Shown: positions 14,455-31,156 of the stretch, one piece after another | How the letters are laid out: each line of letters begins with the position of its first letter | How positions within the stretch are numbered: the stretch's first letter is position 1 | Virus record (IMG/VR): IMGVR_UViG_3300043464_002308 | Location: 1-31,156 of that record | From: a virus | DNA length: 31,156 nucleotides | Direction: 5' to 3' (one strand) | Notes under the pieces: model-generated | Seen by the model: the letters and a program-made list of their open reading frames with translations, nothing else | What the model was told of the DNA's origin: nothing | Databases searched by the model: none | Made by a program: the position numbers and the translations under genes

Positions 14455-15778
14455 CAGTTTTCTCCTTAACTGGTTCTGGTATTTTTCCCGGATTTTGTTC
14501 CCAAGCTAATTTTGCTTGTTCACCAATTCTTCCTTCATATGGACATGGTGTACCTGCTTGCATCATGGCATCCCACACTCTACGATCTTGGCACATAGTA
14601 GCAACTGCGGCAACTTTCATGCCCATATCATACAATGTTTTGCTTAACTTTAGTCTTTCGCAATTCATATCACGAACAGTACTACCACTGCTGGCTCCTA
14701 GGATTTGCGTTTGTACACTGCCGCTAGTGCCGGTACTACATAGGTCATTATTGCCGCCACTCATCATTGTAGGAGCAATTGCAGTAGGTGGAGGGGTAAT
14801 TACTCGTTGAGTAATTGTACTTTCGTTAATATTACGATTAGTCATCTCACCCTGCTGAATATTAGTATTTACACTAGTATTTGTATTTACATTATTATTT
14901 GTGTTAGTACTTGTAGCAGTGGTTTGATTAATATTACGATTAGTCATATCGCCAGTATTAATATTGTTGTTTGTATTAGTACTGGTAGTAGTATTAATAT
15001 TACGGTTGGTCATGTCACCAGTATTAATATTTGTATTAGTATTATTACTGGTAGTAGTATTAATATTACGATTGGTCATATCGCCGGTATTAACATTAAA
15101 ATTACGGTTCGTCATATCACCAGTATTAATATTGTTATTTGTATTAGTACTGGTAGTTGTATTAAGATTGCGATAAGTCATGTCACCGGTATTAATGTTT
15201 GTATTAGTATTATTACTGGTGGTTGTATTAATATTACGATAAGTCATATCACCAGTATTAATATTGTTGTTTGTATTAGTACTGGTAGTAGTATTAATAT
15301 TACGATTGGTCATATCACCAGTATTAATATTGTTGTTTGTATTAGTACTGGTGGTTTGATTAACATTATTATTATTGTAGGTAACTGTTCCGCTATTAAC
15401 ATTGTTATTATTATAGGTCATAGTGCCTGTATTAACATTGTTATTAGTAACCGTACCGCTTTGAATATTTTGATTAATGTTAGTATTTGTACTAGTACTT
15501 GTATTTGTGTTAGTATTTGTATTATTACTATTTACTGTACTAGTACTAGTACTATTTGTAGTACTAGTAGTGTTATTATTTGTAGTAACTGTGCTCGTAC
15601 TATTACTTGTACTGTTAGTATCTACAAGTGTTTTGGAGTCATACGTACCTTGATTTATCAAAGTAGTTGTGTTGGTGGTGGTACCACCAGTAGTACCAGT
15701 AGTACTAGTATTAGTTTGGGAATGGCCTATACTGCAAAATAAAAGCAATATAACGAATAATTTAGATTTTAAAAGCAT
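14384..15778 (-). CDS. Exported Asn/Thr-repeat protein with Cys-containing C-terminal domain (464 aa)
   Basis: Signal peptide (1-20, 'LFVILLLFCSIGHS'). Residues ~21-330 are almost wholly Asn, Thr, Ser, Ile and Gly: first an irregular Ser/Thr/Asn stretch, then 22-residue repeats of the form TTTSTNTNNNINTGDMTNRN + IN. Residues ~345-435 form a distinct domain with cysteines at 347, 373, 396 and 412 ('MGMKVAAVATMCQDRRVW', 'AGTPCPYEGRIGEQAKLAW'). The last ~17 residues are hydrophobic and glycine-rich ('IGLGALLGAVVYKFAGF'), a likely membrane anchor. An unusually strong GAGGAGG site precedes it. Unknown function; repeat composition suggests a beta-solenoid or glycosylated stalk. Confidence 0.8.
   Translation of the reverse strand: MLLKSKLFVILLLFCSIGHSQTNTSTTGTTGGTTTNTTTLINQGTYDSKTLVDTNSTSNSTSTVTTNNNTTSTTNSTSTSTVNSNNTNTNTNTSTSTNTNINQNIQSGTVTNNNVNTGTMTYNNNNVNSGTVTYNNNNVNQTTSTNTNNNINTGDMTNRNINTTTSTNTNNNINTGDMTYRNINTTTSNNTNTNINTGDMTYRNLNTTTSTNTNNNINTGDMTNRNFNVNTGDMTNRNINTTTSNNTNTNINTGDMTNRNINTTTSTNTNNNINTGDMTNRNINQTTATSTNTNNNVNTNTSVNTNIQQGEMTNRNINESTITQRVITPPPTAIAPTMMSGGNNDLCSTGTSGSVQTQILGASSGSTVRDMNCERLKLSKTLYDMGMKVAAVATMCQDRRVWDAMMQAGTPCPYEGRIGEQAKLAWEQNPGKIPEPVKEKTDDTYKKIGLGALLGAVVYKFAGF
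14825..15358 (-). repeat. In-frame 66-bp tandem repeats coding 22-residue Asn/Thr units
   Basis: Residues 141-318 of the Asn/Thr protein consist of about seven units whose core is INTGDMT(N/Y)RN(I/L/F)N preceded by TTTS(T/N)NTN(N/T)N. One unit is shortened to 12 residues ('VNTGDMTNRNIN') and the last is expanded. The forward strand shows the same as recurring 'attaatattacg' blocks. Such DNA is prone to slippage and copy-number change. Confidence 0.9.
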
Positions 15779-17142: not shown

Positions 17143-17832
17143 TCAGCCCACCAGTTCAGGAAACAGCTCTTTATGTATAAAATCATGTATCATTTCCTCA
17201 CTAAACCCTAAGGCTTTTAGTACTTTTGGAGTGTGTGGATTTTGTTTTTGCTGTTGGCAATAGTAATTTTGCTGTTCAGTGTAGTTATATTGTTTTACTA
17301 ATTCGTCATAGCTTAGTGGAGGACGATACTTTAGTATACTGTCAATATAGTATTCAAGAGATTTTTTACTTAACTCTAAAACTGCCTCTAACTCAAACTC
17401 ACTATTAATGTTTCCAACTGCCAACATACTTGGACTAAATATTCGCTTAGCCCAATCCGGAAGTTCTCGTGTTTTATCCCAGTGCATAGGTTCGACTAAA
17501 TCTTCAAAATAGTCTAATAGCTTGTGCTCTGGATTAATTGGACTAAAGTCTAAAAAGGCTCCGGTAACTTTATGCTTTCCAGCTATAATATCAAATCCGT
17601 ATACTGGTGCACCGTCGTAAACGTGCGGAAATACGCACAAGTGCATCATCCACAAACCTTTAGTATCTATGGCGTCTATTACGTCAATATTAGCACGTCT
17701 AAACCAAGCACAGTTATAACTACGACTAGTCCAAGCTAGGTCACACTCCTGTGGCAACAAAAAGGCCCGCGCACTAAGAACCTTCTCAAGTTCTAGCGCG
17801 TGGGCCTTTAATTTATTGAATATTATACTCAT
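17143..17832 (-). CDS. pcyX: Ferredoxin-dependent bilin reductase, PcyA/PcyX-like
   Basis: 229 aa. Reduces biliverdin IXalpha with electrons from ferredoxin to a phytobilin. Family blocks: 'CAWFRRANIDV' (41-51), 'MMHLCVFPHVYDGAPVYGFDIIAG' region (62-85), 'LDFSPINPE' (94-102), 'PDWAKRIFSPSMLAVG' (125-140) and 'YCQQQKQNPHTPKVL' (191-205). Aligned by eye to Synechocystis PcyA, His88 matches H64 and Asp105 matches D81, while Glu76 is replaced by D50. PcyX enzymes of uncultured oceanic phages are PcyA-like and make phycoerythrobilin, so that product is the best guess. It overlaps the heme oxygenase gene by 20 bases. Symbol by similarity only. Confidence 0.87.
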   Translation of the reverse strand: MSIIFNKLKAHALELEKVLSARAFLLPQECDLAWTSRSYNCAWFRRANIDVIDAIDTKGLWMMHLCVFPHVYDGAPVYGFDIIAGKHKVTGAFLDFSPINPEHKLLDYFEDLVEPMHWDKTRELPDWAKRIFSPSMLAVGNINSEFELEAVLELSKKSLEYYIDSILKYRPPLSYDELVKQYNYTEQQNYYCQQQKQNPHTPKVLKALGFSEEMIHDFIHKELFPELVG

Positions 17833-18337
17833 TGGCTATTCTATCAAATAAGTCAATGGTTAGTTCGAAACATTTATTTGCTTCTGCTGCCATACTAATA
17901 TCCAACCTTTCACGCAAACTGTCAATTAACTGTCTGCGATTTTCAAAATTATACATTAAACCACTACCGGGTACCTTGGTTTTAATTAGTTGTCCGCCGT
18001 ATAGATCACCCATATGTTTGGTGTATACATGTGCCCATAGCTGATTTGCTGTTAGGCTGCTTACATAATCACAGTAGTTTAAAGTACTATTAAATAAAAT
18101 AACTGGCTCATCTAGTTCCAGCAAGTCTTCAAATATTAGCCTAGTTCTGTGTAAACCAGGCAAATCTTTTAACAAACTACTTGCACAGTGTTCTAACGCA
18201 TTGTACTGGTGCAACTGGTTTGCCAAATAAGTGGCGTATATACCACTAGTAATCTTTCCACTTAACAGCAGTTTAGTAAACGGATGCTGCTCAGCAACAT
18301 TATGATTGTGTTGCGTTAATTCTTTTAATGTTGTCAT
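17813..18337 (-). CDS. Biliverdin-producing heme oxygenase
   Basis: 174 aa. Opens heme to biliverdin, CO and iron. The N-terminal 'HNVAEQHPFTKLLLSGKI' (12-29) has the proximal-ligand pattern H-x-x-A-E with H12 the likely heme ligand; 'YATYLANQLHQYNALE' matches the next helices; the distal helix 'HMGDLYGGQLIK' (108-119) corresponds to the GDLSGGQ motif of HO-1-type enzymes. It is shorter than host HO (~210-240 aa), as is usual for phage forms. It overlaps HldD upstream by 38 bases and the bilin reductase downstream by 20, so the biliverdin producer and consumer are translationally coupled. Confidence 0.88.
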   Translation of the reverse strand: MTTLKELTQHNHNVAEQHPFTKLLLSGKITSGIYATYLANQLHQYNALEHCASSLLKDLPGLHRTRLIFEDLLELDEPVILFNSTLNYCDYVSSLTANQLWAHVYTKHMGDLYGGQLIKTKVPGSGLMYNFENRRQLIDSLRERLDISMAAEANKCFELTIDLFDRIANEYNIQ

Positions 18338-19193
18338 GGTACTCTTTTGGAGTTATAAACTTATAGTCGCCAATCAATTTATTACGCAGCTTGTCAGTAT
18401 TAGCCTTACTAAAATACTGATATTTTCCGTGTAAAATTTCTGGCATATCTATCCAGTGTATATTTTCTGTGTACAATTTAGCAATGTCTAAAAAGCTTGT
18501 GCTCTCGCCAGTGCCTAAATTATATATTCCTGGATTGTTGTTAGTATAGTCAGCAAGTATGGTAACTACATCGTCTACACAAATAAAATCGCGTTGTATT
18601 TTGTCACTGTTGTAGAATAAGGTTGCTGCCCCGTCTTTTTGCTTTTGTATAGCAAACTTTGAAACAGGACTCATTTGATCGTCTTTGTGCAACTCGCCAC
18701 TGCCGTAAACATTAAACGGTCTGAATATCCAGGCATTTTTTACACTGCTGTTTATAAGTGCTTGCTCAGTTAAACTCTTACTTATAGCATATCCATTGAT
18801 TGGATTATGCTCGTCTGTTTCGCAAAAGGTGTTGCTGTTGCCGTATACACTAGCGCTGCTTGTGTATACAAAAGGTGTTCCGCCCATGCTACAGTATTTG
18901 GCCCACATAAGAGTATGCTTATAATTATACTCCATTAGTTTTTTGCCATTGGTTTCTGTAGTACTACTTATAGCACCGATATGAAATACTTTTTCAATCC
19001 AGTGCATTCCTAGCTCACCCCAGTCTATACTATTGCAGTCATAGTATGCAGCAAACTTTAAATCATTTAAGGTTGCTAACTTTCTACCGTCAGTTAAATC
19101 ATCAATAATGGTGATTTCAGTTATACCTTTTTTATTTAAATACTTTACTAAGTTACTACCTATAAAGCCACAACCACCTGTTACAACATACAT
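18300..19193 (-). CDS. hldD: ADP-L-glycero-D-manno-heptose 6-epimerase (HldD/RfaD)
   Basis: 297 aa. Short-chain dehydrogenase-type epimerase: NAD(P)-binding 'VTGGCGFIGSN' (4-14), 'IIDDLTDG', 'HIGAISSTTETNGK' (71-84; diagnostic of HldD), catalytic 'YTSSASVYG' (110-118) and Y135-xxx-K139, 'FRPFNVYG', 'IQRDFICVDDV' and a C-terminal substrate lobe. It converts ADP-D-glycero- to ADP-L-glycero-beta-D-manno-heptose, the last step of nucleotide-heptose synthesis for LPS core or glycoproteins. It overlaps the HAD gene by 13 bases. Kinase and adenylyltransferase for the same pathway lie just upstream, which strongly supports the call. Confidence 0.9.
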   Translation of the reverse strand: MYVVTGGCGFIGSNLVKYLNKKGITEITIIDDLTDGRKLATLNDLKFAAYYDCNSIDWGELGMHWIEKVFHIGAISSTTETNGKKLMEYNYKHTLMWAKYCSMGGTPFVYTSSASVYGNSNTFCETDEHNPINGYAISKSLTEQALINSSVKNAWIFRPFNVYGSGELHKDDQMSPVSKFAIQKQKDGAATLFYNSDKIQRDFICVDDVVTILADYTNNNPGIYNLGTGESTSFLDIAKLYTENIHWIDMPEILHGKYQYFSKANTDKLRNKLIGDYKFITPKEYHDNIKRINATQS

Positions 19194-19483
19194 TGAAAAA
19201 ACTCCCTATCATTCATAGCTTTGTCATCTATGAACACGTCATAACTAGGCTTTTTCATATGTAGTTCAGTATATTTACAGCCCCATTCGGTTAACTGTTT
19301 TTTAGTAAGCTCTGAGTAATCTTTTCCGCTGTGCCCACCGCGTGCAGTCCAGTAGTGTATTTCGTGACCAGACTCGTAAAGATGATTTATAATTTCTATT
19401 CTATTTACCAATGGTTTTGCCAGCTTGTAGTTGCCGTTAGTATTTGTGCAAATTGTACCATCAATATCTACATAATAAATCAT
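19181..19483 (-). CDS. Small HAD-superfamily phosphatase (100 aa)
   Basis: HAD motif I DIDGT (D6, D8), motif II in 'HYWTARGG' (~43-50), conserved lysine in 'MKKPSYDVF' and motif III/IV acids 'IDDKAMND'. The size and capless layout resemble capsule-biosynthesis phosphatases of the EcbF/BcbF type. Position between cupin and HldD, in a heptose set that otherwise lacks the GmhB step, suggests it removes the C7 phosphate of heptose 1,7-bisphosphate; that assignment is inference. Starts with an ATGA overlap on the cupin gene. Confidence 0.8.
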   Translation of the reverse strand: MIYYVDIDGTICTNTNGNYKLAKPLVNRIEIINHLYESGHEIHYWTARGGHSGKDYSELTKKQLTEWGCKYTELHMKKPSYDVFIDDKAMNDREFFQCML

Positions 19484-19836
19484 TTTTGACTATCACCTTT
19501 TTGAACTCTATAATTATCTTCTACACTGTCTGGTGTGCTTACTTCAATAATAGTACCAGCTTCTAAACAAATAAGTCTGTGTGGTAGCAGGGGTGGATTA
19601 TGGTGTACACTGCCAGTGGCTAAAATCTTTTTGTGCACTTCTGCAGTTTTAGTATCAATAGTTTCTACTTCAAATCTACCACTTAGTACATACCAAGTTT
19701 CTTCTTTTTGGCTGTGAAAGTGCATACTAAATCTAGCACCAGTATTAAAGTTAAGAAACTTACTGCAATACTTATCATTTGTTACCCAGATAAGCTCACT
19801 TCCCCAACCTTTTTCAACTGTTCCCTGCAATCTCAT
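19480..19836 (-). CDS. Cupin-fold sugar isomerase/epimerase-like protein (118 aa)
   Basis: Single cupin domain with a full metal site: H39-F-H41 and E45/E46 in 'FSMHFHSQKEETWYVLSG', and H86 in 'PPLLPHRLI', followed by 'EVSTPDSVEDNYRV'. It resembles the short type II mannose-6-phosphate isomerase/WbuC-like cupins found in sugar-nucleotide clusters. Substrate unknown; a sugar phosphate or nucleotide sugar in the same pathway is likely. 'GWGSELIW' at the start is typical of the family. It overlaps the kinase gene by 23 bases and the phosphatase gene by 4. Confidence 0.78.
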   Translation of the reverse strand: MRLQGTVEKGWGSELIWVTNDKYCSKFLNFNTGARFSMHFHSQKEETWYVLSGRFEVETIDTKTAEVHKKILATGSVHHNPPLLPHRLICLEAGTIIEVSTPDSVEDNYRVQKGDSQK

Positions 19837-20611
19837 TTATTTCTTTCAGTGTAGGAGCGTAAACTCCAATATGTTGTACCGTTATGCTAGCCGCTATGTT
19901 TGCAAACTTAATTGCAGCTACAATATCTTGCGTATTCAAGTATTCATATACTAGCGCTGCTAGAAAAGTGTCTCCTGCTCCACATACGTCTGCGACTTCT
20001 ACAAGAGGTGCACTGTACATTGTATCTAAATATTCTGCACCATGCTTGCCGTGTGTAACTATTAAGTGTTCAGGAAGTGTTTTGGCTAGTTGTTTTTCAG
20101 TGCTATTTATCTTTACTATTGCGCGACCAACATTAGCTAAGTCCGGCTTTTTAGTGTCTAAAAATACAGGGCCTACAAAAGTATTACAAACTTCTTGTAT
20201 TAAATCGTACGTTACGCTGCCCTTATTGTAGTCACTTATAACTACTGCATCATATACTGGTGGTATTTCTGTTTCTAACACAATTGGCTGCGATTTAGCG
20301 TCGTGGTCTAATCGCATTATGTGCTGATTAGATTTTACGTCGATAAATCTAGTTTTTACACTGCCTTTCATGGTGAGCAGATTTACTGTGCAGCCTAGCT
20401 GTTTCAAATTTTCTTCAACATTTGCAGCCATACCATTCTTAGTTTCTTCTTTTGTAGGAACAAATACAGGTACTGGTGCCTCAGGACTTAGTCGAGTAAT
20501 TGATCCGTATACATACTGATCAACGCAGCTGTCGCCGATTAATAAAATTTTCCAAGATTTGGGAACTTGAGTAAGGTGTTGATCTAGAATAGAAAATAAG
20601 TTCTCGTGCAT
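19814..20611 (-). CDS. hldE1: Heptose-7-phosphate kinase (HldE N-terminal domain type, PfkB family)
   Basis: 265 aa. Ribokinase/PfkB fold: 'LLIGDSCVDQYVYGSITRLS' (23-42; the 'RLSPEAPVPVF' continuation is typical of RfaE kinases), 'MAANVEENLKQLG' (61-73; a normal family member has 'GGAANVA'), 'SDYNKG' (126-131), and the catalytic 'GAGDTF' (211-216; base D214). It phosphorylates D-glycero-D-manno-heptose 7-phosphate at C1. In bacteria such as E. coli this domain is fused to the adenylyltransferase; here it is separate and downstream of it. Its first 92 bases lie inside that gene in another frame; no nearer start codon keeps the fold. The symbol marks the domain only. Confidence 0.88.
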   Translation of the reverse strand: MHENLFSILDQHLTQVPKSWKILLIGDSCVDQYVYGSITRLSPEAPVPVFVPTKEETKNGMAANVEENLKQLGCTVNLLTMKGSVKTRFIDVKSNQHIMRLDHDAKSQPIVLETEIPPVYDAVVISDYNKGSVTYDLIQEVCNTFVGPVFLDTKKPDLANVGRAIVKINSTEKQLAKTLPEHLIVTHGKHGAEYLDTMYSAPLVEVADVCGAGDTFLAALVYEYLNTQDIVAAIKFANIAASITVQHIGVYAPTLKEINEIAGNS

Positions 20612-20927
20612 ATTCTGAACCGATTACGGTTTTATCTTTATAATCACTTCCCACAATCATTTTATGTGGTCTATATTGTTTTACTATTTGAGTTAATTCC
20701 AGGTCACTATCAAAAATCATTGCATCATCAACCCAGCGCAAGCTTTGAATTAACTTTAGTCTGTTATACTGTGGATTTAGGGGCCTGTCCAGCCCTTTTC
20801 TAGCAGCAACTCTATCGTCAGAATCAATTGCTACTAGCAAAAAGTCACCTAGACTTTTTGCATACTGCAATAGGTCTAGGTGGCCTGGATGTAAAACGTC
20901 AAAAGTACCGTTTACAAATATTTTCAT
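20520..20927 (-). CDS. hldE2: Heptose-1-phosphate adenylyltransferase (HldE C-terminal domain type)
   Basis: 135 aa. Nucleotidyltransferase fold with 'VNGTFDVLHPGHLDLLQYA' (5-23), the HxGH signature H13-PG-H16, 'VAIDSDDRVAARKG' and the C-terminal 'YSSSQIL' that matches the ISSTxI motif. It would transfer AMP (or CMP, as in the related TagD) to a sugar phosphate; HldE-type is preferred because kinase and epimerase of the same pathway follow. It starts with an ATGA overlap on the carbamoyltransferase gene and overlaps the kinase by 92 bases. Confidence 0.87.
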   Translation of the reverse strand: MKIFVNGTFDVLHPGHLDLLQYAKSLGDFLLVAIDSDDRVAARKGLDRPLNPQYNRLKLIQSLRWVDDAMIFDSDLELTQIVKQYRPHKMIVGSDYKDKTVIGSEYARELIFYSRSTPYSSSQILENFINRRQLR

Positions 20928-22711
20928 TCGTTAGCAATTTTTAGTAATTTATTATACTCTGGCAAATACAAGTACTCGATTTCGCTTTGTTGCAGTGTCC
21001 ACAGTGCGTCTGCTAAAGTCTCTACTAGTGGTTCTCCGCCCAAGTTAAAACTTGTGTTGAATAAAATTGGCGTACCAGTCTTATCCTTAAAGCACTTAAT
21101 TAAATCGTAGTAGTGTTCATTTTCACTACGGTTAACTGTCTGTATACGACAAGTTCCATCAACGTGAATAATACTTGGAATCTTTTCTTCTACACCAGGT
21201 TGACAATTAACAGCATACATCATATGTGGGCTGTTTTGCATACCTCGTAGATCAAACCAGTCATGAACATCTTCTTCTAGTATTGTACCTGCAAAAGGTC
21301 TAAAATACTCTCTACGTTTTACTTGATTAACAAAGTCTTTGCCGTCTTTGAATCTAGGATCAAATAATATACTACGATTACCTAGTGCACGTGGGCCATT
21401 TTCGCTACGACCTTGAAATAGAGCAACAATATTCTTTTGCTCTAACAGCTCAACTACTTGATTGTGGTTACAGTCGCTGACTGTGGCACCGTATTCGTTT
21501 GCTAAATTGCTTATTTGGTCGTCAGTATACTGATATTGAGGGCCTAAGTAAATTTCGCGTGGGTGCATTTCTTCAGACTTACTAAGTTCATGATAACCCC
21601 ACAAAGCTACACCAATTGCAGTTCCACCATCATTACTAATAGGCTCTACATATAGTTCTATGCCAAGATCGTTTAACTCATTCAAATAGTGATAGTTAGC
21701 AACACAGTTAAGTGCATAACCACCACTTAAAACTACTTTCTTTTTGCCTGTTAGCTCAACTGCACGCTTAATTAACTCTAACACTTGGTGCTGAGTCTGT
21801 GTTTGACAAGCGTAGGCTAAATCTCGACGATTCTGAGTTTTAGTAACATCTTTATCAGTTACAGTCATTAACTCAGCGTACATTTGTGAATTAACCATTG
21901 CACCGTTAGGGTATCTTGGAACTATTACATTTCTGTCGCTAATTGTAGCAAGTTGAGAATCTATAAACAGCTTTGGAATATTTTCGTTAGGCTTTCCGTA
22001 CGGGAATAAACCCATAGTTTTTCCTGCCTCAATAGCACTAAAACCACAATACTCTGTTACTGCTTCGTATACTTTGGTAATACCAGCATGACCGCTTATA
22101 AATTCAATATGCGTACCTGGTTCACCAAACTTTTCCGAACTCTGACTTTCAGTATACATTCCAGTTATAGAGTCTCTGCAACCTAAATGTTTATATACAG
22201 TTTTGAAATTTGCAGGATAACTACAATCTATTAGTGTTTCTGTTTCCCATAGTGCTATCGGCTGGTCGCCAAATCCTGCAGAGTACATTGTGCCAGCACC
22301 GTCTACAATTACAGCAACTGCGTCTTTAAATCCACTTCTATAAAAAGCAATGGCTGCATGAATTTTGTGATGTGAGTGGCTTAGATCAATAACTTGAGGA
22401 TGATTTCTAGGATCTGCGTTGCGACTTATAAGTCCCATTTTACGAGCAAGTCCAGTGTATACATCGTCACCACTGTAGTCTACTTTACCAGCGGTTTCCT
22501 TTAGCGACTGAGTATGCGAAACAAAAATATAGTCTACTTTATCTGTATATTCTTTTACCTTCATCATGGTAGCATAAGGCCCGCCATCATATTTTTGCCT
22601 ACTAAGCCTTTCTTCTTCTAAACTGAAGACTACTTTACCGTCCTTTAGTAAGCACGCCCCGGCGTTGTGGCCGCGAGCAATACCGAGAATATACCCAGTT
22701 TTATTAATCAT
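20924..22711 (-). CDS. Carbamoyltransferase, NodU/TobZ family
   Basis: 595 aa, full length for the family. N-terminal Kae1-like ATPase domain: 'GIARGHNAGACLL' (10-22), 'SLEEERLSRQKYDGG' (30-44), 'HSHHKIHAAIAFY', 'AVIVDGAGT', 'VVLSGGYALNCVAN'; C-terminal carbamoyl-transfer domain: 'GRSENGPRALGNRSIL', 'REYFRPFAGTILEED' and 'NTSFNLGGEP'. The family makes carbamoyl-AMP from carbamoyl phosphate and ATP and moves the carbamoyl group to a hydroxyl of a sugar. Here it sits between a glycosyltransferase and heptose genes, so a carbamoylated sugar is likely. AAAGG stands ~12 bases before the ATG. Confidence 0.92.
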   Translation of the reverse strand: MINKTGYILGIARGHNAGACLLKDGKVVFSLEEERLSRQKYDGGPYATMMKVKEYTDKVDYIFVSHTQSLKETAGKVDYSGDDVYTGLARKMGLISRNADPRNHPQVIDLSHSHHKIHAAIAFYRSGFKDAVAVIVDGAGTMYSAGFGDQPIALWETETLIDCSYPANFKTVYKHLGCRDSITGMYTESQSSEKFGEPGTHIEFISGHAGITKVYEAVTEYCGFSAIEAGKTMGLFPYGKPNENIPKLFIDSQLATISDRNVIVPRYPNGAMVNSQMYAELMTVTDKDVTKTQNRRDLAYACQTQTQHQVLELIKRAVELTGKKKVVLSGGYALNCVANYHYLNELNDLGIELYVEPISNDGGTAIGVALWGYHELSKSEEMHPREIYLGPQYQYTDDQISNLANEYGATVSDCNHNQVVELLEQKNIVALFQGRSENGPRALGNRSILFDPRFKDGKDFVNQVKRREYFRPFAGTILEEDVHDWFDLRGMQNSPHMMYAVNCQPGVEEKIPSIIHVDGTCRIQTVNRSENEHYYDLIKCFKDKTGTPILFNTSFNLGGEPLVETLADALWTLQQSEIEYLYLPEYNKLLKIANE

Positions 22712-22726
22712 TTATATTTTATACCT

Positions 22727-23734
22727 TTACGCAACACTTAATTTTTTCGAAAATGGAGGAATAATTCCAGCAGCATCTGAAACTATTGGCTTATTTGGTT
22801 GTTCTGGCGCTTGCTTTGTTTTACCTAGTTTATCAGTAACGCTTTTAATGATTCTATCAAAAGTTTTATCCTCTAGTATCATTAAATCTTCGTTTACCCT
22901 GTCGGCTACAAAATCCATTGTAACTCGTATTGGGCTATAAACACGCCTGTCTTTACCATTATCAATTATGGTAAAATTCTTGTTAGACGGATAGCTTATA
23001 TTTTCTGGAAAAGTTGAGCCAATAACTACTGTAGCTGGCTTATTAAGCGCGTGTGCGTAGTGTTGCCCCATACTATCGCAACCAATAAAATAGTCTGCTG
23101 CATTTATAATACCCATCCACTGTAGCAGATTGGCATTTGGTATTGCAGCACCCATTTGTTTATTAGTTTGAATCTCAATATTTGTCATTAAAACTACCGC
23201 ATAGTGCTTTGACAGCTCCTCTACAGTTTTAAAAACATCTTTTAACTCAAAGCTGCGACCACTAGTATCAATTATAAAATTACCGTCTCTGTGCGCCCCG
23301 GATCCAAATGGTTGAAACACAACAGTTTTTGGTTTTCCTAATTGAGACCTCACTTGACTAACTAAGTTATGTCCATACGCTTGGTCAATTTTATTAATCT
23401 CTAAATTAAATTGTTTTGTTTCTGGTATTTCTTTTAAGTCGTTTATAAGTATGTCAAAAGCTTGAATTAAATTGCACTTTTGGTTAAAATATGCATTCAA
23501 TCTATAAGGCTCAGGAGATACGATCTCACGATCCTTTAGTTTTTCTTCAAATAAGCCTTTATGACCCATTGGCCACACATTGTTTCTTATTATAGGGCTG
23601 GTCAGAAATAGTTCTGACCAGGCCTCACATACAATAACAACTTCGCTATCTACGTTTTGCTTATACCATTCAAGAGCAGGTATAGCGCACAGCACTCTAC
23701 CTGCTCCACCGTTAATAAAAAATGCTTTTTTCAT
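22727..23734 (-). CDS. GT9 (heptosyltransferase)-like glycosyltransferase
   Basis: 335 aa, GT-B fold pattern: 'INGGAGRVLCAIPALEWY' (7-24; the G-x-G-D/R..PAL motif of family 9), central 'VVFQPFGSGAHR' (138-149; acceptor/nucleotide loop), and 'FIGCDSMGQHYAHALNKP' (216-233), the nucleotide-sugar motif equal to 'DSGPMHLA' of heptosyltransferases. With ADP-heptose genes downstream it probably transfers heptose, though to which acceptor (LPS, protein or phage fibre) is unknown. The last ~35 residues are a Lys/Pro/Gln tail not typical of the family. First gene after a promoter, so it leads the operon. Confidence 0.8.
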   Translation of the reverse strand: MKKAFFINGGAGRVLCAIPALEWYKQNVDSEVVIVCEAWSELFLTSPIIRNNVWPMGHKGLFEEKLKDREIVSPEPYRLNAYFNQKCNLIQAFDILINDLKEIPETKQFNLEINKIDQAYGHNLVSQVRSQLGKPKTVVFQPFGSGAHRDGNFIIDTSGRSFELKDVFKTVEELSKHYAVVLMTNIEIQTNKQMGAAIPNANLLQWMGIINAADYFIGCDSMGQHYAHALNKPATVVIGSTFPENISYPSNKNFTIIDNGKDRRVYSPIRVTMDFVADRVNEDLMILEDKTFDRIIKSVTDKLGKTKQAPEQPNKPIVSDAAGIIPPFSKKLSVA

Positions 23735-23809: not shown

Positions 23810-25132
23810 TTAGTTGCAGTTCCAAGATACGCAAATGGCTCCAGCTCGACCGTAGTCACCACAGTGTGTGCCAGGCGATCTAACAAAACGACCAGTGCCT
23901 CCGACACCAGGAGCTCGTCTCCAACCATGGCATGCCATTGGGGAGAAGCAGCCCTGACTACAACATTTCTCTGTTGTGCCGAACTGTTTAGAGAGTGGCC
24001 ATTCAGCATCTGGACTTACTATGTTCCACGAATTTGGGAAGCCTACTGAGGGTAATTGTATGTGATAACTACTGCTATCTGCATTATTAGGGTGTCCTAA
24101 GCAACAAGTTGCTCCTACCCAGAATCCTGGCCAGACTCCGTACGTACCGTAGTGCTTAACATTCTTGAAGTTTCTGCAATCAACGTTTATAAACATTGGT
24201 GAGCAGAATCCGCAGTGATGATCATAGTGTGGAGGAATCCAACTAGACTGGTTAGGGCCATCGTAACAAGTCCCCCATTGGCTGCTGCAAGTTTGCATAC
24301 CTCTGATACATTGGAAGTCTCTACCAAATGAGCACATGCAACCGCCGCCTGTCATAAGGTCCATGTTATTCATTACGGTCCAGGTACCGCCTATTTGCAT
24401 ACTACAGCAATTATTCCAGCCAAAACTCTGGCACCAACTACAGTTCCATCTGCAAGCACAAGGTTCTGGGCCTCCATGGGTAGTAATACTGGTAGCGTTG
24501 CCATTTGCATTGTCATAGTAGCAGACCATGGTACAGTAGCCATTAGTAAATCCAGGGGTTCCGCTAGCATCACCAAAACAGCATTGGGCACAGCCTGCAC
24601 AAAGAAATAGACAATCGCCCTGTGTAACGTTAAATTCAATAACAGAGTACGCGCCGTTTGTACCGCCAGTACCTAAACCTTGGCAACAAGCTCCAGAACT
24701 CCCAGTACCAGGCCCCCACATTTGAACTTGAACTCTGCTTACCCCTGCAGGAACACACCAGTTACACTCTCTATTGCAGCGCACAAAGTCTTGGTCCATT
24801 AACCACAAACCATTTTGTCTTGGTTTTGTGAATTGGCCAAAAGTTTTGCAATATAAATCATTTACTGCATATACTGCTTCATGCGGGCTGTCATAGCATA
24901 ACCAATTTGGCAATACATAACCTGCCCTGTTAAATCCATCAGGAAGTCTGCAAGTACAGTTAGGTGTCCATGCAAAACTTTCTATACTAACTCTATCACA
25001 CTCAGCTGTACCAGCATATCCTGTTGCCTTCTGTAGGGCAGTGTACCTAGCACGGTCTGTTTCAGCGTCTATTAGCTGCTGTGTAAGTATTGCTTGCTCT
25101 CTAAGAGCTGCTTGTACTAAAATATCACTCAT
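23810..25132 (-). CDS. Cysteine-rich glycine-rich tail-type protein B (440 aa)
   Basis: 40 cysteines in 440 residues by my count. A helical N-terminus (1-35) is followed by a domain related to phage Gly-rich tail/adhesin modules: 'CVPAGVSRVQVQMWGPG' (126-142), 'GGTNGAYSVIEFNVTQGD' (156-173) and the cluster 'LCAGCAQCC' (177-185). Many W, G, N and CC pairs continue to the end ('GRAGAICVSWNCN'). No signal peptide. It is a paralogue of the 380-aa protein ~1.9 kb away. The start overlaps the stop of the 240-aa gene as ATGA. Disulfide-stabilised or metal-binding virion tip protein is likely; no enzymatic motif seen. Confidence 0.82.
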   Translation of the reverse strand: MSDILVQAALREQAILTQQLIDAETDRARYTALQKATGYAGTAECDRVSIESFAWTPNCTCRLPDGFNRAGYVLPNWLCYDSPHEAVYAVNDLYCKTFGQFTKPRQNGLWLMDQDFVRCNRECNWCVPAGVSRVQVQMWGPGTGSSGACCQGLGTGGTNGAYSVIEFNVTQGDCLFLCAGCAQCCFGDASGTPGFTNGYCTMVCYYDNANGNATSITTHGGPEPCACRWNCSWCQSFGWNNCCSMQIGGTWTVMNNMDLMTGGGCMCSFGRDFQCIRGMQTCSSQWGTCYDGPNQSSWIPPHYDHHCGFCSPMFINVDCRNFKNVKHYGTYGVWPGFWVGATCCLGHPNNADSSSYHIQLPSVGFPNSWNIVSPDAEWPLSKQFGTTEKCCSQGCFSPMACHGWRRAPGVGGTGRFVRSPGTHCGDYGRAGAICVSWNCN

Positions 25133-25851
25133 TCTGCCACCTCTTCTGGTTGTGCTTGTTGTTCAGATACGGGTATGCTCTTAAGTGACATTTCTACCGC
25201 TTTCGATATTTGTGGAACTGCACTACTATCAGGCAACTTATCAAATTTCCACGGTCTTTGGTCTTTAATAGATACTTTAAAATTATTTAAAGTATCTATT
25301 GCCTGTGTAATCTTAGTTAAATTTTGTGCAGAATGCTGTACGTTATCTCTGTTATATTCAAGCAAAGTAATTTTATCTTCTACTTCTCTAAGAATACTTA
25401 ATTCTTGCGGATATTTATAATTAGGAACTAATTTAAACTCGTATGCCGTGTTTTCATTATTCAAAGAATAGTCTAGTAGATAATAATCAGTAATTCTAGG
25501 ATTAGTGATTACTGCGCATATACTTCCATCAAAATTTTCTTCATCAGCATATGTATATTCGTAGTTTGGATTATTTTTTTGAACTAGTAGTTCAGCTAGT
25601 GCTGTGTTTTGCTCTGCCGATATTTCTAGTATTTTGTATTTTTCCGTGTCTTGGAAAATTGGATTTTCTACAGGTTCGAAGAATGCCAAATTAAATACTT
25701 CTTCTACATCTTCGTTTCCGTCTTGTTTTATTAAAGATACAACTACATATATTGTATCTGGCCCATTATAGTTAAATGTGGCACTTAAGTCTTCTTCCCA
25801 ACTGTTAACGTATAGTTCGTCAGGAATTTTAATAGTAAATTGTTTTTGCAT
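25129..25851 (-). CDS. Acidic structural-type protein between cysteine-rich paralogues (240 aa)
   Basis: Function not recognised. A predominantly beta N-terminal half ('FTIKIPDELYVNSWEEDLSA', 'DTIYVVVSLIKQDG'), 'DYYLLDYSLNNENTAYEFKL' near 125-145, a helical segment (~150-190) and a Pro/Gln/Glu-rich tail. Only one cysteine (in 'GSICAVI'), in striking contrast to its neighbours. Translationally coupled to protein B by ATGA. It could be a chaperone, an attachment or an assembly partner for the tail proteins; this is inference from position only. Confidence 0.75.
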   Translation of the reverse strand: MQKQFTIKIPDELYVNSWEEDLSATFNYNGPDTIYVVVSLIKQDGNEDVEEVFNLAFFEPVENPIFQDTEKYKILEISAEQNTALAELLVQKNNPNYEYTYADEENFDGSICAVITNPRITDYYLLDYSLNNENTAYEFKLVPNYKYPQELSILREVEDKITLLEYNRDNVQHSAQNLTKITQAIDTLNNFKVSIKDQRPWKFDKLPDSSAVPQISKAVEMSLKSIPVSEQQAQPEEVAE

Positions 25852-25875
25852 ATACTTTTATATCCTTGCTATACA

Positions 25876-27018
25876 TTAACACCAAGATACTCGTACTGCA
25901 CCGCCGTGACCTCTGCAGCCACCGCCGCAGTTACCACTACAGCTAGCACTACCAGCACCTCCACGACCTGGCATACTCCAACAGCAAACGTTAATACACC
26001 CAGCGCCGGTAATACAGTTTTGAGTATTTCCATTTTGATTCGACCAGGCACCAATAGTAGGCCCAGAATAGATTGCATTATTGCTGTCAAATGCATGTAC
26101 TGGTGCAAAACAGTATCTGTACATAAAGCCGTGACCCATGCAGCCACCATCGTGCCAAGTTAGTGCGGGCCAGTACCCTCTAACACCATGTGGAGTCCCA
26201 AAGAAACCTGTACAACATTCTTCTATCCAAGGAATGCAGTCATTCATTCTAGCCTTCCAGCTTGTACTACCACCAACACAATGAGCCGGCCATGTACTTA
26301 CCTCTAATCCTCGACAAGAGTTAGTTGCTGTGTCGCACCTATTTGGATTAATACAGAAATACTGTCCACACAAATAGGTGCCTGTATAAGTACTGCTAGG
26401 ACCTGCACTAACATCTACAGGGGTAATACCACAGTGACGCTGTTGGGAAGCTTTCCATCTAAAAATTTCTGGTTGATATCCGCCTTGAGCACAGAAATTT
26501 GTTAAACCCGATCCAGTAACAAAGCTAGAAGCGGCTAGTTTAACGTTGCCGGTAGTCCAGCAGTTTGAGTAACAGAAACCGCTTATTGGGCCCATGTTTA
26601 CGCAACAACATTCTGCACAACCTGCACACAATGTATACTGGCACCCTGGAACGGCATCAATTATAATTGTAGCGTAAGCTCCGTTTGCGCCGGGCAAGCC
26701 CCAAGCACAGCACTCGCCGCCAACTCCATTTGCTCCAGCACCCCATACCTGAAATTGTACCCGTGTTGCACCTGCTGGCACAGTCCACAAACAACACCGG
26801 CCACAGCCGGCATTGTCAGTGTTTTGTACTACAAATTGCTTATTGCCAACCGCTGTTTGATTTAACATCGGTTGGCTTTGCCAAGTAATTGGATCCCAGG
26901 TTGTTACACCGCTGATAAGTCCGAATTCACTTGCAATTGCTGCTTGCTCTTGGGCAAGCCTGGTTCTTATAGCCTCATTGCGCTCAATGAGTTGACTATA
27001 TAATGTTATGTCTGACAC
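25876..27018 (-). CDS. Cysteine-rich glycine-rich tail-type protein A (380 aa)
   Basis: 33 cysteines in 380 residues. Like protein B: helical start (2-31), then 'WTVPAGATRVQFQVWGAG' (78-95), 'GANGAYATIIIDAVPG' (110-125) and 'LCAGCAECCC' (130-139), then Cys/Gly/Asn/Trp-rich repeats and a Gly/Cys C-terminus ('SCSGNCGGGCRGHGG'). The 'W.VPAG.T.V...WG.G' block is the start of the glycine-rich sandwich domain seen in phage tail tips and collars. GTG start, with AAGGAG eight bases upstream. It follows the giant tail protein by 23 bases, so it is probably in the same late transcript as a virion component. Confidence 0.82.
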   Translation of the reverse strand: MSDITLYSQLIERNEAIRTRLAQEQAAIASEFGLISGVTTWDPITWQSQPMLNQTAVGNKQFVVQNTDNAGCGRCCLWTVPAGATRVQFQVWGAGANGVGGECCAWGLPGANGAYATIIIDAVPGCQYTLCAGCAECCCVNMGPISGFCYSNCWTTGNVKLAASSFVTGSGLTNFCAQGGYQPEIFRWKASQQRHCGITPVDVSAGPSSTYTGTYLCGQYFCINPNRCDTATNSCRGLEVSTWPAHCVGGSTSWKARMNDCIPWIEECCTGFFGTPHGVRGYWPALTWHDGGCMGHGFMYRYCFAPVHAFDSNNAIYSGPTIGAWSNQNGNTQNCITGAGCINVCCWSMPGRGGAGSASCSGNCGGGCRGHGGAVRVSWC

Positions 27019-27041: not shown

Positions 27042-30000
27042 TTAAACTACCGTGCTAGAAACTGTATTAACCAGTCCGGCAGCTGTGTAAGTTACTGTAA
27101 CATTTCGAGTACTTGCTCCACTACCAAAGTTTACTGACTCGGTGTAGGAAGTTATTTGATTGTTTGCATTGTAAACTACATTAGAGATTGTTTTAAATCC
27201 ATTAGTAGATGCTGTTACTCTACCACTAGCGTCTCTGGTTATGCCATTGGCTAGTAACGGTTGAGTTAGTTGTGAACTATTCAATCCTGTAGATACATAT
27301 GTTCGTACAGCGTATTCGGTCGGTACAGCTACGTTACTGTTACCACTCATTGTGGCGTCACTACTAAACTCGTTAATAGTTTCGCCAAGCTGAGCACCAA
27401 TACTACCTAGACGCAAGCTAGTCAGACCAGCCAAGTCGAACGCGTTAGCGTTCAGCGTAGCACGTCCAGTTGCCTGGTCAATACGGAAGTATTCACCTAC
27501 ACGGAAGTTACCGTCTTGGTCAGTAGATACATAGAACACACGACCTGGGAACACTTCGTCAGTTTCGTTGCCTTGTGCAGCTGGCTGAGTTGGTATGCCT
27601 GGATAGTTTGTGGTAGTTACACCACCTGTACCAATCGACAAGAAGTCGTGACCAGTTAGTCGAATCTGACTGTATTGACTGCGTAGTGTAACAGCGCTAC
27701 CACTGGGACTACCTGTTGGCTTTTCCTGTGCTAGCACAACCACTATTTCACTGCTTGCATTAGTATATGTACCTGTTGTACTTTGTACCACATACGCAAT
27801 ACTGTCACCAGCAATTTGAATACTTTGGCCTGGTTTAGGTGCAGCTGTTAAGCCGTTCATTACCAATACAAAGCCTTTTTGGTCTTCTAAACCGCCTGCA
27901 CTTACTGTGCCTGTACCACCGCTAGTAAATGTTAGTGTATCGCCTAATGTAAATGTACCTGTTGTATTACGAACATAAAACTTATTAGCACTATACTGTA
28001 CGTTTGTAACTATACCTGTTGCACTGCTACTGCTGGTTACAGTATCACCAACGTTAATGGTTCCGCCCTGATAAACAAAATTTATCTGTCGACCAAGTAG
28101 TGTTCCAGTAACTGCTGTTTCGTTTACGTCAAATCCACGACTGACGGCACCCCAAGTACCATAACTATTGTTGCCGTTTAGTGCACGAATATGTCCGCCA
28201 CCAGTACTTGCATAACCAAAATAGCAGTAGTAAGTAAAGCAGCTAACAATTTCTGCCTTGCCGCCGTCCTTGACCCAGTAGCCTATACCATTATCACTGA
28301 TAACAGTATAACCGTGGAAAATCATAGACTTAGCACCAGTTGCATGTACACTGCCATCAACTAGTGCACCTACTAAACCGCTACCAATTGCACTGCACTC
28401 TAGTACATAAGGTGACTTTGTGGTAATTGGTGTAGCAGGATTTAGTCTTGCCACAACGCCGCGGATAGTACTTGTTGTAATATCGCTTGCAGTTGTACCA
28501 GGCACCCAACCAGTCATGCCTACAAATGTCATTTTATTAAGAATGCTACCATTACTTAATAAGAACATTGTTGCTTGATTGTTTGGCGTAGTACCATCAT
28601 CGCTGTTACCAGTTTTTGGTTGTACAATTGTAGTACGCTGATTGTCACCAACGATTGCTACGTTTGCTGGTACTGTAATAGGTAGTTGTTCACTGTAAGT
28701 GCCGGTTTTTACAAAGATTGTACTGCCTGTTTCAGCCTGTTGACAAGCATACTTGATGCTTGCAAAAGGAGTTGCCAAGTTACTACCACTTGTTGGCGCG
28801 TCCACTCCGTGAGGAGCAACATAGTAAACTTTTGCAGACTCTGTAGAGCCTAGCCACAATGCCGCGGTTCCTACCGGGCCAATTGTCAGTGATCTACCAA
28901 CTTTGGTTCCACCAGCATCTAATGGCGCATCATTGTACTTGTTATTTAGTAAATCATAGTAAAGTACATTACCAGTGTTTGTACTTGGTATTGTTACTAC
29001 TTCACCAGAGTTATTTACAACGGAAACTCCCAAGAATACGTAGTTGTCATACGGCATTCCGTATGTTTCAATCTCTTTAATTTCTTGACTAGCATATTGG
29101 AATGCTTCGCGAATACTATTAAACAGATATGCACTAGGAATTTTTACAACGTGATCTGCACTAGCTACTGCAACAAAATATGTATTAGTAAACTTGCCTG
29201 CAGGAATGTTATTTAAATCATAACCAACTGCTTGACTTACATAGCCGTTATACTGTGGTACTGGAGTCAGTGATGTTGTAGAGGCAAATCCTGTACCTAC
29301 ACCACTTGTATCAGTTACTACAATATTTGCATAACTATAGTGTCTGCCACCATCGACCACATTAACACCTAATATTCCGCTTGGTGTTGCCTGAACAGCA
29401 AACTGAGCTCCTGTGCCTTGTGGTGTGCTATTTACTACTATACTGCCGTAAGTATACCCACTTCCAGGACTTGTTAGTGTAATACTATCAATTGTGTTAC
29501 CTGGACCAAGTGTTAAGGTTGCAGCTCCACCGCTGCTGTACTGATTGCCAGTAATTTGAACAGTAGGTGTACTTGTGTAGTTTTTACCAGGATTTGTAAC
29601 TGTTATAGTTTTAATTGGATAACCACTTAAAATAGCGTTTGCAGTTGCTCCAGTACCGCCTCCACCACTAAATGTTATGGTAGCGTATGTATAATTGTGA
29701 CCTGGATTAGTGATAACTAAGTCTGTTACACCACCTGCAGTAATTTGAGCTGTTGCTGTTGCTCCGTGACCATCACCACTAATAGTTACGGTTGGAGCAC
29801 TTGTATATCCACTACCAACATTAGTGATTTGATAATCAGCAATATTGCTTTTCAGCGTATATGCAGTAGCACTAGCACCTGTACCATTACCAGTAATTGT
29901 TACTGTAGCGTAAGTATATCCGCTACCGCCATTTGTAATATCAACGTCGGTTACTGCACCAGCAACAATAGTAACGCTTGCTGTAGCGCCTGTACCGTCA

Positions 30001-31156
30001 CCGTTAATAGTAGCAGTTGCTGTTGTATAGCCACTACCTAAACTGTCAACGTGTATGTGAGCAACAGGCGTACCCAAATCTAGTTCTATTGCAACAGTAG
30101 CACCGGTACCACCACCGCCAACTACTGTACCACTAACGCTAGTATATCGTTGTCCAACGTTTGTGATTGCTGCGCTGGCTACGTTTTTACCAGGTGGTAC
30201 AACGATTGTGGCTGTTGCACCTGTACCGTCACCGTTAACAGTAACAGTTGAATTACTTGCGTAACCTGTACCGCCATTAACTAAAGATATACTTTGTAGC
30301 GGGGCACCTTGGAACACTGGCGTTACGATAGCACCTTCGCCGTCACCTTGTACACTTAGTGTAGTAGTGCCACCGTTATAACCTAAACCTGCCGCGGTAA
30401 CGTTAACACCGCTCAATACACCTAGTTTATAAGTAAACTGGTTGTCATTAAAGTCTGCAAGTTTCCAGGTACTGCCATCACGCACTAAGAACTTATTACC
30501 AGTTTTTACTGGTGCAGAAATTGTTAAATCTGCGTCGCGTAATTCGCCTGCTTTTGTATTTGTGTAAGTTGCTACACCTGCAGCAACTGGTGTTAAACCG
30601 TGACCGCTTACATACTTAATACCATCGGCGCGCTTAATGTGTGCTAAGGTTGCTCCGTCAATGCTTATGCCATGACGTTGATCTTCTACGCTAATTGCGC
30701 GACCATTAGCACTGCTGCCGCGTACTGCTGCAACATTAGCCTTTGTAGTTAAGATCTCATCAGTTCTATTAGCTGTGGAGCTTAGTGTGTTACCGTCAAA
30801 GTAGAAATAGTTGTAACCAGTAATGCTTGCTACAGTTCTAGTTACTAGTGTAGTCTTTTCGTATCTTACACCATTAATCCAGTAAATAAATTTTGTTTGA
30901 CCTGCTACTGGATAGATTGCTACTGTTTTTGCTACAGCAGCTGTTTCAAACGCTGTGCCCGTAGCAAACTTACTATCTTCGCGAGTAGTTACTGCACCAA
31001 ATTGATCTATGCGATAGATTCTGGTACCGTTGTCGCTAAATTCTACAATACCGCGTGTTGCTGGATGCTGATTATCAAAACCGGTCGGATCTAGCGTTGT
31101 GTTAGTAACGGTAGAGCCTTGAATAACATCCAGTACTCCGTCCACTGTTACGTTAC
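27042..31156 (-). CDS. Giant repeat and beta-helix tail fibre/structural protein (5' truncated by window)
   Basis: At least 1370 residues; the frame is open to the right edge (the GTG at 31145 is probably not the true start). Order of parts: a ~240-residue head with 'GIVEFSDNGTRIYRIDQFG'-type strands; ten ~38-residue repeats (~249-632); a linker; a right-handed beta-helix/pectate-lyase-like region starting near 772 ('VYYVAPHGVDAPTSGSN', 'ASIKYACQQAETGSTIFV', 'GTYSEQLPITVPANVAIVG'); and a C-terminal segment with 'FPGRVFYVSTDQDGNFRVGE', 'GSIGAQLGETINEFS' and 'NSNVAVPTEYAVRTYV'. This pattern is that of large virion proteins of T4-like aquatic phages, probably a tail fibre or baseplate-linked adhesin. 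Confidence 0.85.
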   Translation of the reverse strand, partial: NVTVDGVLDVIQGSTVTNTTLDPTGFDNQHPATRGIVEFSDNGTRIYRIDQFGAVTTREDSKFATGTAFETAAVAKTVAIYPVAGQTKFIYWINGVRYEKTTLVTRTVASITGYNYFYFDGNTLSSTANRTDEILTTKANVAAVRGSSANGRAISVEDQRHGISIDGATLAHIKRADGIKYVSGHGLTPVAAGVATYTNTKAGELRDADLTISAPVKTGNKFLVRDGSTWKLADFNDNQFTYKLGVLSGVNVTAAGLGYNGGTTTLSVQGDGEGAIVTPVFQGAPLQSISLVNGGTGYASNSTVTVNGDGTGATATIVVPPGKNVASAAITNVGQRYTSVSGTVVGGGGTGATVAIELDLGTPVAHIHVDSLGSGYTTATATINGDGTGATASVTIVAGAVTDVDITNGGSGYTYATVTITGNGTGASATAYTLKSNIADYQITNVGSGYTSAPTVTISGDGHGATATAQITAGGVTDLVITNPGHNYTYATITFSGGGGTGATANAILSGYPIKTITVTNPGKNYTSTPTVQITGNQYSSGGAATLTLGPGNTIDSITLTSPGSGYTYGSIVVNSTPQGTGAQFAVQATPSGILGVNVVDGGRHYSYANIVVTDTSGVGTGFASTTSLTPVPQYNGYVSQAVGYDLNNIPAGKFTNTYFVAVASADHVVKIPSAYLFNSIREAFQYASQEIKEIETYGMPYDNYVFLGVSVVNNSGEVVTIPSTNTGNVLYYDLLNNKYNDAPLDAGGTKVGRSLTIGPVGTAALWLGSTESAKVYYVAPHGVDAPTSGSNLATPFASIKYACQQAETGSTIFVKTGTYSEQLPITVPANVAIVGDNQRTTIVQPKTGNSDDGTTPNNQATMFLLSNGSILNKMTFVGMTGWVPGTTASDITTSTIRGVVARLNPATPITTKSPYVLECSAIGSGLVGALVDGSVHATGAKSMIFHGYTVISDNGIGYWVKDGGKAEIVSCFTYYCYFGYASTGGGHIRALNGNNSYGTWGAVSRGFDVNETAVTGTLLGRQINFVYQGGTINVGDTVTSSSSATGIVTNVQYSANKFYVRNTTGTFTLGDTLTFTSGGTGTVSAGGLEDQKGFVLVMNGLTAAPKPGQSIQIAGDSIAYVVQSTTGTYTNASSEIVVVLAQEKPTGSPSGSAVTLRSQYSQIRLTGHDFLSIGTGGVTTTNYPGIPTQPAAQGNETDEVFPGRVFYVSTDQDGNFRVGEYFRIDQATGRATLNANAFDLAGLTSLRLGSIGAQLGETINEFSSDATMSGNSNVAVPTEYAVRTYVSTGLNSSQLTQPLLANGITRDASGRVTASTNGFKTISNVVYNANNQITSYTESVNFGSGASTRNVTVTYTAAGLVNTVSSTVV
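29250..30401 (-). repeat. Ten ~38-residue Gly-rich repeats inside the giant tail protein
   Basis: Each unit reads roughly ITN(V/G/P)GSGYT.ATVTI.GDGTGATA followed by a variable strand of ~12 residues. Copies 4 to 7 are most alike; copies 8 to 10 diverge (GNQYSSGGAA, NSTPQGTGA, TDTSGVGTG). At DNA level the units are ~111-120 bp and recur as 'ccaccattagt/gtaatgg' type blocks. The pattern suggests a beta-solenoid or chained beta-sandwich shaft. Confidence 0.87.

Follow-up and report, generated by a model that had tools for sequence, protein, structure and literature searches.

The 31-kb window analysed here, which is the whole of virus record IMGVR_UViG_3300043464_002308 (31,156 nucleotides), encodes two exceptionally cysteine-rich proteins on either side of a third gene (Table 1). 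The two proteins, which we call tip A and tip B, and the product of the gene between them are very probably two receptor-binding tail-fibre tips and their chaperone, located behind a long tail fibre gene. Directly downstream of tip B is a gene for a GT9-like (heptosyltransferase-like) protein, phrog_8954. This is the decisive neighbour, and was not mentioned in the original prediction, a reading of the sequence by itself. In the collections searched, the GT9-like gene and cysteine-rich tail proteins of unrelated types are linked without exception. We suggest, as the best but still tentative explanation, that this phage enzyme S-glycosylates the cysteines of the tail tips, probably with heptose. 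From its genes for heme oxygenase and ferredoxin-dependent bilin reductase, and its synteny with P-SSM2, the window most probably comes from a T4-like cyanophage.

The cysteine counts given in the original prediction (33 in 380 residues, 40 in 440, and one in the middle gene) are exact on recount, and amount to 8.7% for tip A, which has a GTG start, and 9.1% for tip B. The remaining genes of the window, which were called mechanically like all open reading frames (ORFs) discussed here, contain 86 Cys in 7,545 residues (1.14%; neither the first gene, which lacks its start, nor the long tail fibre is counted in this baseline), giving binomial tails of 2e-23 for tip B and 6e-19 for tip A. The proteins had been described as diverged paralogues, and they are homologous: P0002 recovers P0001 at E 1.3e-7 with 32% identity, and their alignment has a common order of motifs (WxVPAGxxRVQxQxWGxG, NGAY, LCAGCAxCC). 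The same three genes are found in the same order in IMG/VR contig L001, with 70, 53 and 67% identity. The richness in cysteine is not due to chance, because L001 keeps all three genes and nearly all of their cysteines (30 of 33 and 36 of 40). An origin by chance or by frameshift is ruled out by the conservation of genes and cysteines in both L001 and isolates.

The tips match PHROG 4205 and 35878, whose functions are unknown, and their relatives are labelled hypothetical in all annotated records. The isolates that encode them are Kyanoviridae-type cyanophages (P-SSM2/5, S-SSM7/6a, S-CAM1, S-CAM3, Sf-FS3), and they also occur in single-cell marine viruses. The search of viral metagenomes that had been suggested reveals a large family: 80 loci from an IMG/VR profile scan, together with the isolates and the window, give 230 homologous ORFs, each with 6-13% Cys; most contigs have two to three of these. 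The IMG/VR loci are the best-scoring 80 of each scan and are phylogenetically linked, and percentages derived from them are not independent counts. Cys is the best-kept residue type in the family, being retained at 89% in pairs of 50-88% identity versus 79% for Gly and 73% for Trp. Other marine-phage proteins of the Gly_rich_2 type, one of them in P-SSM2 itself, mostly have 27-33% Gly and under 1% Cys. A genome scan with the cysteine-rich motif LCAGCAxCC gave 78 pattern matches, none of which was confirmed as a relative. A search of one library of papers turned up none that treats S-glycosylated tails or cysteine-rich tail proteins of cyanophages. The virion proteomics of PMC3037559 dealt with S-SM1, and no passage on the tip proteins was found in that paper. 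In the isolate Sf-FS3 (L122 7299-16580), several genes for prolyl-4-hydroxylase-like 2-oxoglutarate (2OG) dioxygenases are interleaved in the cassette, and may point to a further modification of tail proteins.

AlphaFold2 was used to model tip A from a 109-sequence alignment, giving a predicted local distance difference test score (pLDDT) of 69.9 and a predicted template modelling score (pTM) of 0.71. The model has an N-terminal helix (residues 4-31), a confident β core, and distal loops that are poorly predicted (pLDDT below 50). Its best match in the PDB is the fibre of phage Pam3, gp24 (7ypx_A; Z 11.6 over 178 residues at 3.1 Å), for which Foldseek gives E 1.2e-3 with probability 1.00. It is followed by the tail tip of Bxb1 (9d93, Z 11.1) and, at Z about 7-8, by the glycine-rich domain of ALK, to which the Pam3 authors likewise liken their fibre (PMC9608196). 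Sequence searches of the PDB gave no match, whether P0002 or the 109-row profile was the query. Gly_rich_2 (PF21722) is matched by 40 of the 109 tip relatives at E 0.01. The window tips are not over its curated threshold (P0002 scores 12.8 bits, under the cut-off of 24.3), which is exceeded by SXBG_00224 of S-CAM1 and by SSSM7_114-116.

A chaperone gene, placed between the tip genes or after them, is present in nearly all cassettes (CCCh in 39, ChC in 20 and ChCCh in 18 of 86 loci). PF16778 (Phage_tail_APC) is matched by 38 of the 65 members of the chaperone family, at best with 7.1e-12, though not by the window member; the family profile matches 2kz6 at 1.4e-5. The chaperone model (pLDDT 86.6) is β in its N-terminal half and helical in its C-terminal half. 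When it was used for a fold search no match was significant, the highest Z being 7.1 (with a helical segment), and Pam3 gp25 is not among the matches listed. Our identification of tips and chaperone is made because of the fold match to Pam3 gp24, the Gly_rich_2 relatives and the Phage_tail_APC chaperone family. It agrees with the original prediction of tail-type proteins, possibly receptor-binding tips. The accompanying statement that no such family had been described does not hold, given the PHROG matches, the relatives in isolates and the fold of a solved cyanophage fibre.

The resemblance to Pam3 gp24 and gp25 (7ypx, 7yfw; PMC9608196) extends to the N-terminal helix, the TNF-like domain that leads into a tip lattice built of small-residue loops, the dedicated neighbouring chaperone gene, and the cyanobacterial host. 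However, the tip domain of gp24 has 39% Gly, whereas the window tips have 12-14% Gly (whole protein) and about 9% Cys, and phages of the window type have two to three paralogous tips with linked GT9-like and carbamoyltransferase genes. The window tips are therefore described as a same-fold variant of gp24, and not as a member as regards the glycine-dominated tip. With Gly_rich_2 they have in common the motif WTVPxG...WGAGG and a C-terminal G..G.V.I.Y strand, but in the window proteins the Gly runs are partly replaced by Cys. The gp38-type adhesins of T-even phages are not known to be cysteine-rich, and that of S16 has a different middle domain and is not among the matches listed for the tip A model. 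It is similar in having a receptor-binding tip made of glycine-rich loops (PDB 6f45), and was compared with Pam3 gp24 in PMC9608196.

In a collection of 50,697 phage records, the cyanophages with cysteine-rich tips carry the GT9-like gene, as do other viruses from marine single cells, Vibrio phages and Aeromonas phage HJ05. All the GT9-like loci examined in phages of Synechococcus, Prochlorococcus, Vibrio and Aeromonas adjoin a cysteine-rich tail protein, which in several cases is unrelated to the tips: in Vibrio phages K479 (1643 aa, 39 Cys) and SBP1 (925 aa, 41 Cys), in HJ05 (559 aa, 23 Cys) and in AG-345-O18 (758 aa with 73 Cys, and 290 aa with 31 Cys). Homologues of the Vibrio tail proteins in phages without the GT gene can be aligned only outside the most cysteine-rich part, and no other homologue was found for the Aeromonas protein. 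Two IMG/VR scans for the GT9-like gene gave 159 loci, of which 134 have tips of the family described here, 12 have cysteine-rich tail proteins of other types, and 13 end short upstream, so that all 146 loci with context have a cysteine-rich tail protein. None of the 159 has more than 5 kb of upstream sequence and no cysteine-rich ORF. The same is true of 9 of 9 GT9-like loci in contigs of metagenome-assembled genomes, all with a cysteine-rich tail protein; these are possibly phage contigs binned with cells. In the reverse direction, 66 of the 80 tip family loci have the gene and 12 are truncated; in the remaining two it lies just past the flank, so that all 68 loci with context have it.

Within 5 kb of the GT9-like gene, 318 of 1537 ORFs are cysteine-rich, versus 14 of 436 farther away (p 1.5e-22, the ORFs not being independent). 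The 23 cysteine-rich proteins from outside the tip family form 10 BLAST clusters, and no sequon is seen in them. In L196 (7523-8425) and L183 (7532-8398), a tail-tip protein with short-period, cysteine-studded repeats (GLTTCIGNTNTCVGNVLTCVQ) adjoins the gene, that of L196 having 40 Cys in 300 aa. A polyglycine domain that occurs both near the GT gene (L200) and elsewhere (P-SSM2, L090), with 42% identity between the two, contains 22 Cys in 325 residues in the first case and 1 in 280 in the second. In P-SSM4, a cyanophage without the gene, none of 103 ORFs in 150 kb reaches 8 Cys per 100 aa. The protein with most cysteines encountered here, with 111 in 911 aa (12%), is encoded in L205, where the GT9-like gene follows about 5 kb downstream.

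PF01075 is matched by 25 of the 54 members of the GT9-like family (best 1.8e-7). In the motif D-S/T-x-x-x-H, which aligns with WaaC and WaaF, D220, S221 and H225 are invariant in the 54 sequences. Protein heptosylation is known for TibC/AAH, the heptosyltransferases of bacterial autotransporters. The phage protein is like WaaC/WaaF and TibC/AAH in its C-terminal nucleotide-binding motif and in the ADP-heptose genes close by; it is unlike them in that its N-terminal half cannot be aligned, it is phage-encoded, and it adjoins acceptors rich in Cys rather than Ser. A precedent for enzymatic S-glycosylation of Cys is provided by SunS, although the glycocin S-glycosyltransferases belong to a different GT family and act on small peptides. 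HldE-like genes are present in 5 of 5 GT-bearing cyanophage and marine records tested, whereas P-SSM4 and the tested phages of Vibrio and Aeromonas yielded none. Vibrio and Aeromonas hosts make ADP-heptose themselves, for their lipopolysaccharide (LPS), while marine picocyanobacteria are thought to have no heptose in theirs.

We propose that in a T4-like cyanophage the tips would form the distal, host-recognising ends of the tail fibres, each with a helical shaft, a TNF-like domain and a loop lattice at the tip, and that their folding would be aided by the chaperone encoded between them. Their cysteines may be the acceptor sites for the GT9-like enzyme encoded directly downstream, which would join a sugar, most likely heptose from ADP-heptose, to the thiols. 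In cyanophages the carbamoyltransferase may subsequently decorate the attached sugar. The outcome would be a receptor-binding tip that is densely S-glycosylated. An enzyme that needs cysteines is the simplest reading, because the cysteine richness follows one gene across folds and not the need of one fold; S-heptosylation is suggested because of the nucleotide-binding half of the GT9-like protein, the HldE- and HldD-like genes nearby, and the distribution of HldE across phages. We infer all four of the enzyme activity, Cys (not Ser/Thr) as acceptor, heptose as the sugar, and the presence of the tips in the virion. In its general form the proposal is slightly more tentative: a portable system of tailed phages of cyanobacteria, Vibrio and Aeromonas may exist, in which a GT9-like enzyme S-glycosylates receptor-binding tail proteins, tips of any fold evolve locally dense cysteines as sugar acceptors wherever this enzyme occurs, cyanophages carry their own ADP-heptose genes, and phages of heptose-making hosts need none.

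Several observations weigh against S-glycosylation. The window GT9-like protein falls just below the PF01075 cut-off, and the similarity to GT9 is weak and lies chiefly over the C-terminal nucleotide-binding half. Where GT9 proteins have G-D-V, an invariant G-x-G-R and a near-invariant V are seen (by eye, the N-terminal halves being poorly alignable). What we take to be the N-terminal catalytic Asp of WaaC and WaaF is thus apparently not kept (G-R-V), and together with the weak match this might reflect a different acceptor, a different sugar, or the absence of any glycosyl transfer. HldE genes lie within the flank in only 68 of 136 IMG/VR GT9-like loci, and these loci are inter-related. Moreover, gene adjacency does not tell which residue is modified. 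Nine core Cys positions are near invariant and C72-C134 is a clearly co-changing pair on the tree, both of which fit some disulfides. The main rival is the disulfide hardening raised in the original prediction, in which the tips would fold reduced in the cytoplasm with the chaperone, the loop lattice would be cross-linked after lysis in oxygenated water, and the GT9-like enzyme would act elsewhere. It gains from the substitution of Cys for Gly in a plastic loop lattice, and Pam3 fibres were reportedly found in 2023 to be disulfide-linked to the baseplate. However, an all-disulfide model would be expected to give even counts and paired changes. Odd counts are as frequent as even ones, both in the tip family (88 odd, 83 even) and in the other types (12 and 11). 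Of 67 independent pairs, 13 show a difference of a single Cys and 8 a difference of two, and short branches of the tree have 49 single versus 17 double Cys events. Cys is also enriched in coiled-coil-like repeats and in unrelated types whose sole common feature is the GT9-like neighbour. Paired disulfides for the whole Cys set were rejected, since the parity, single-change and co-change tests show no pairing beyond C72-C134 (Cys covariation being confounded by relatedness), whereas some disulfides are plausible from the nine core positions. Disulfide hardening is weakened by these findings, and we regard it as rather unlikely.

The GT9-like, ADP-heptose and carbamoyltransferase genes might remodel host LPS during infection, masking receptors, with the cysteine-rich tips a separate adaptation. 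These genes carry LPS annotations, and Sullivan 2010 (PMC3037559) was unable to say whether they are functional. But the GT9-like gene adjoins cysteine-rich tails in phages as unrelated as Kyanoviridae, Schitoviridae and Aeromonas HJ05, and no case lacking such tails came up in the searches, which makes LPS remodelling improbable. We think it very improbable that the carbamoyltransferase S-carbamoylates the thiols, in the manner of HypF acting on HypE, and that the GT9-like gene has an auxiliary role. The carbamoyltransferase occurs in 136 of 136 IMG/VR GT9-like loci with downstream context and is weakly similar to HypF and Kae1, but the family that it matches best is that of NodU, which is a sugar O-carbamoyltransferase, and none was found in K479, SBP1 or HJ05, which have the GT9-like gene and cysteine-rich tails. 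Because of these Vibrio and Aeromonas phages, the carbamoyltransferase is accessory. Metal clusters, heme or covalently attached bilins bound by the tip cysteines, also raised originally, are given very little credence here: the positive evidence consists of the bilin-synthesis genes nearby, with similar ORFs after the carbamoyltransferase in L200 and L145 (by eye). These are common metabolic genes of cyanophages, none is annotated near the cassette in the Vibrio and Aeromonas phages with cysteine-rich tails, no metal motif is conserved across types, and His is scarce in the tip family (2.0%).

An abundant family of hypothetical cyanophage proteins thus gains a likely identity as receptor-binding tips, and the old puzzle of the purpose of phage LPS genes becomes a question for mass spectrometry. 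If S-glycosylation is correct, virion proteins with dense S-linked glycosylation would to our knowledge be without precedent, the enzyme would have a novel activity, and host finding and protease resistance by phages would involve a further, new variable. Even under disulfides, the exceptionless pairing of the GT9-like gene with cysteine-rich genes across unrelated tail proteins is a strong and new functional association.

Table 1. Features of the window discussed in the text.
Feature	Coordinates	Strand	Properties and matches
Long tail fibre gene	27042..31145	-	1367 aa; phrog_9851 tail fiber protein 5e-159
Probable Cys-rich tail-fibre tip A	25876..27018	-	380 aa, 33 Cys; N-terminal helix, TNF-like β domain, glycine/cysteine-rich distal loops
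Probable tail-fibre assembly chaperone of the tip pair	25129..25851	-	240 aa, 1 Cys; homologues match PF16778
Probable Cys-rich tail-fibre tip B	23810..25132	-	440 aa, 40 Cys; paralogue of tip A
GT9 (heptosyltransferase)-like protein, proposed modifier of Cys-rich tips	22727..23734	-	phrog_8954; PF01075 21.2 bits vs cut-off 22
NodU-type carbamoyltransferase, proposed sugar decorator	20924..22711	-	family match
HldE-like heptose-1-phosphate adenylyltransferase	20520..20927	-	TIGR02199 1.1e-27, under curated cut-off
HldE-like heptose-7-phosphate kinase	19814..20611	-	TIGR02198 1.3e-40, under curated cut-off
Cupin, sugar isomerase-like	19480..19836	-	Cupin_2 9.4e-9
HAD-type sugar phosphatase-like protein	19181..19483	-	weak match, 2.8e-5
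ADP-heptose 6-epimerase (HldD)-like protein	18300..19193	-	TIGR02197 1.6e-71, under curated cut-off
Ferredoxin-dependent bilin reductase and heme oxygenase	17143-18337	-	PF05996 1.5e-21 (nearest NCBIfam PcyA); PF01126 1.9e-15; after heptose genes

The long tail fibre gene lies immediately upstream of tip A and reaches the end of the window, an order also found in P-SSM2, S-SSM7 and L001. A glutaredoxin gene at 2455-2631 (+; PF00462, 2.8e-12), which bears on the thiol state of the cytoplasm, is also present in P-SSM2, S-SSM7 and S-CAM1. A 611-aa ORF at 12619-14454 (-) has Gln-rich repeats and a signal-like start, and matches no Pfam or PHROGs family. A 464-aa ORF at 14384-15778 (-) consists mostly of Asn/Thr repeats (INTGDMTNRNINTTTSTNTNN) with a single PHROG match, phrog_20531, of unknown function, and possibly encodes a fibrous or adhesive protein.

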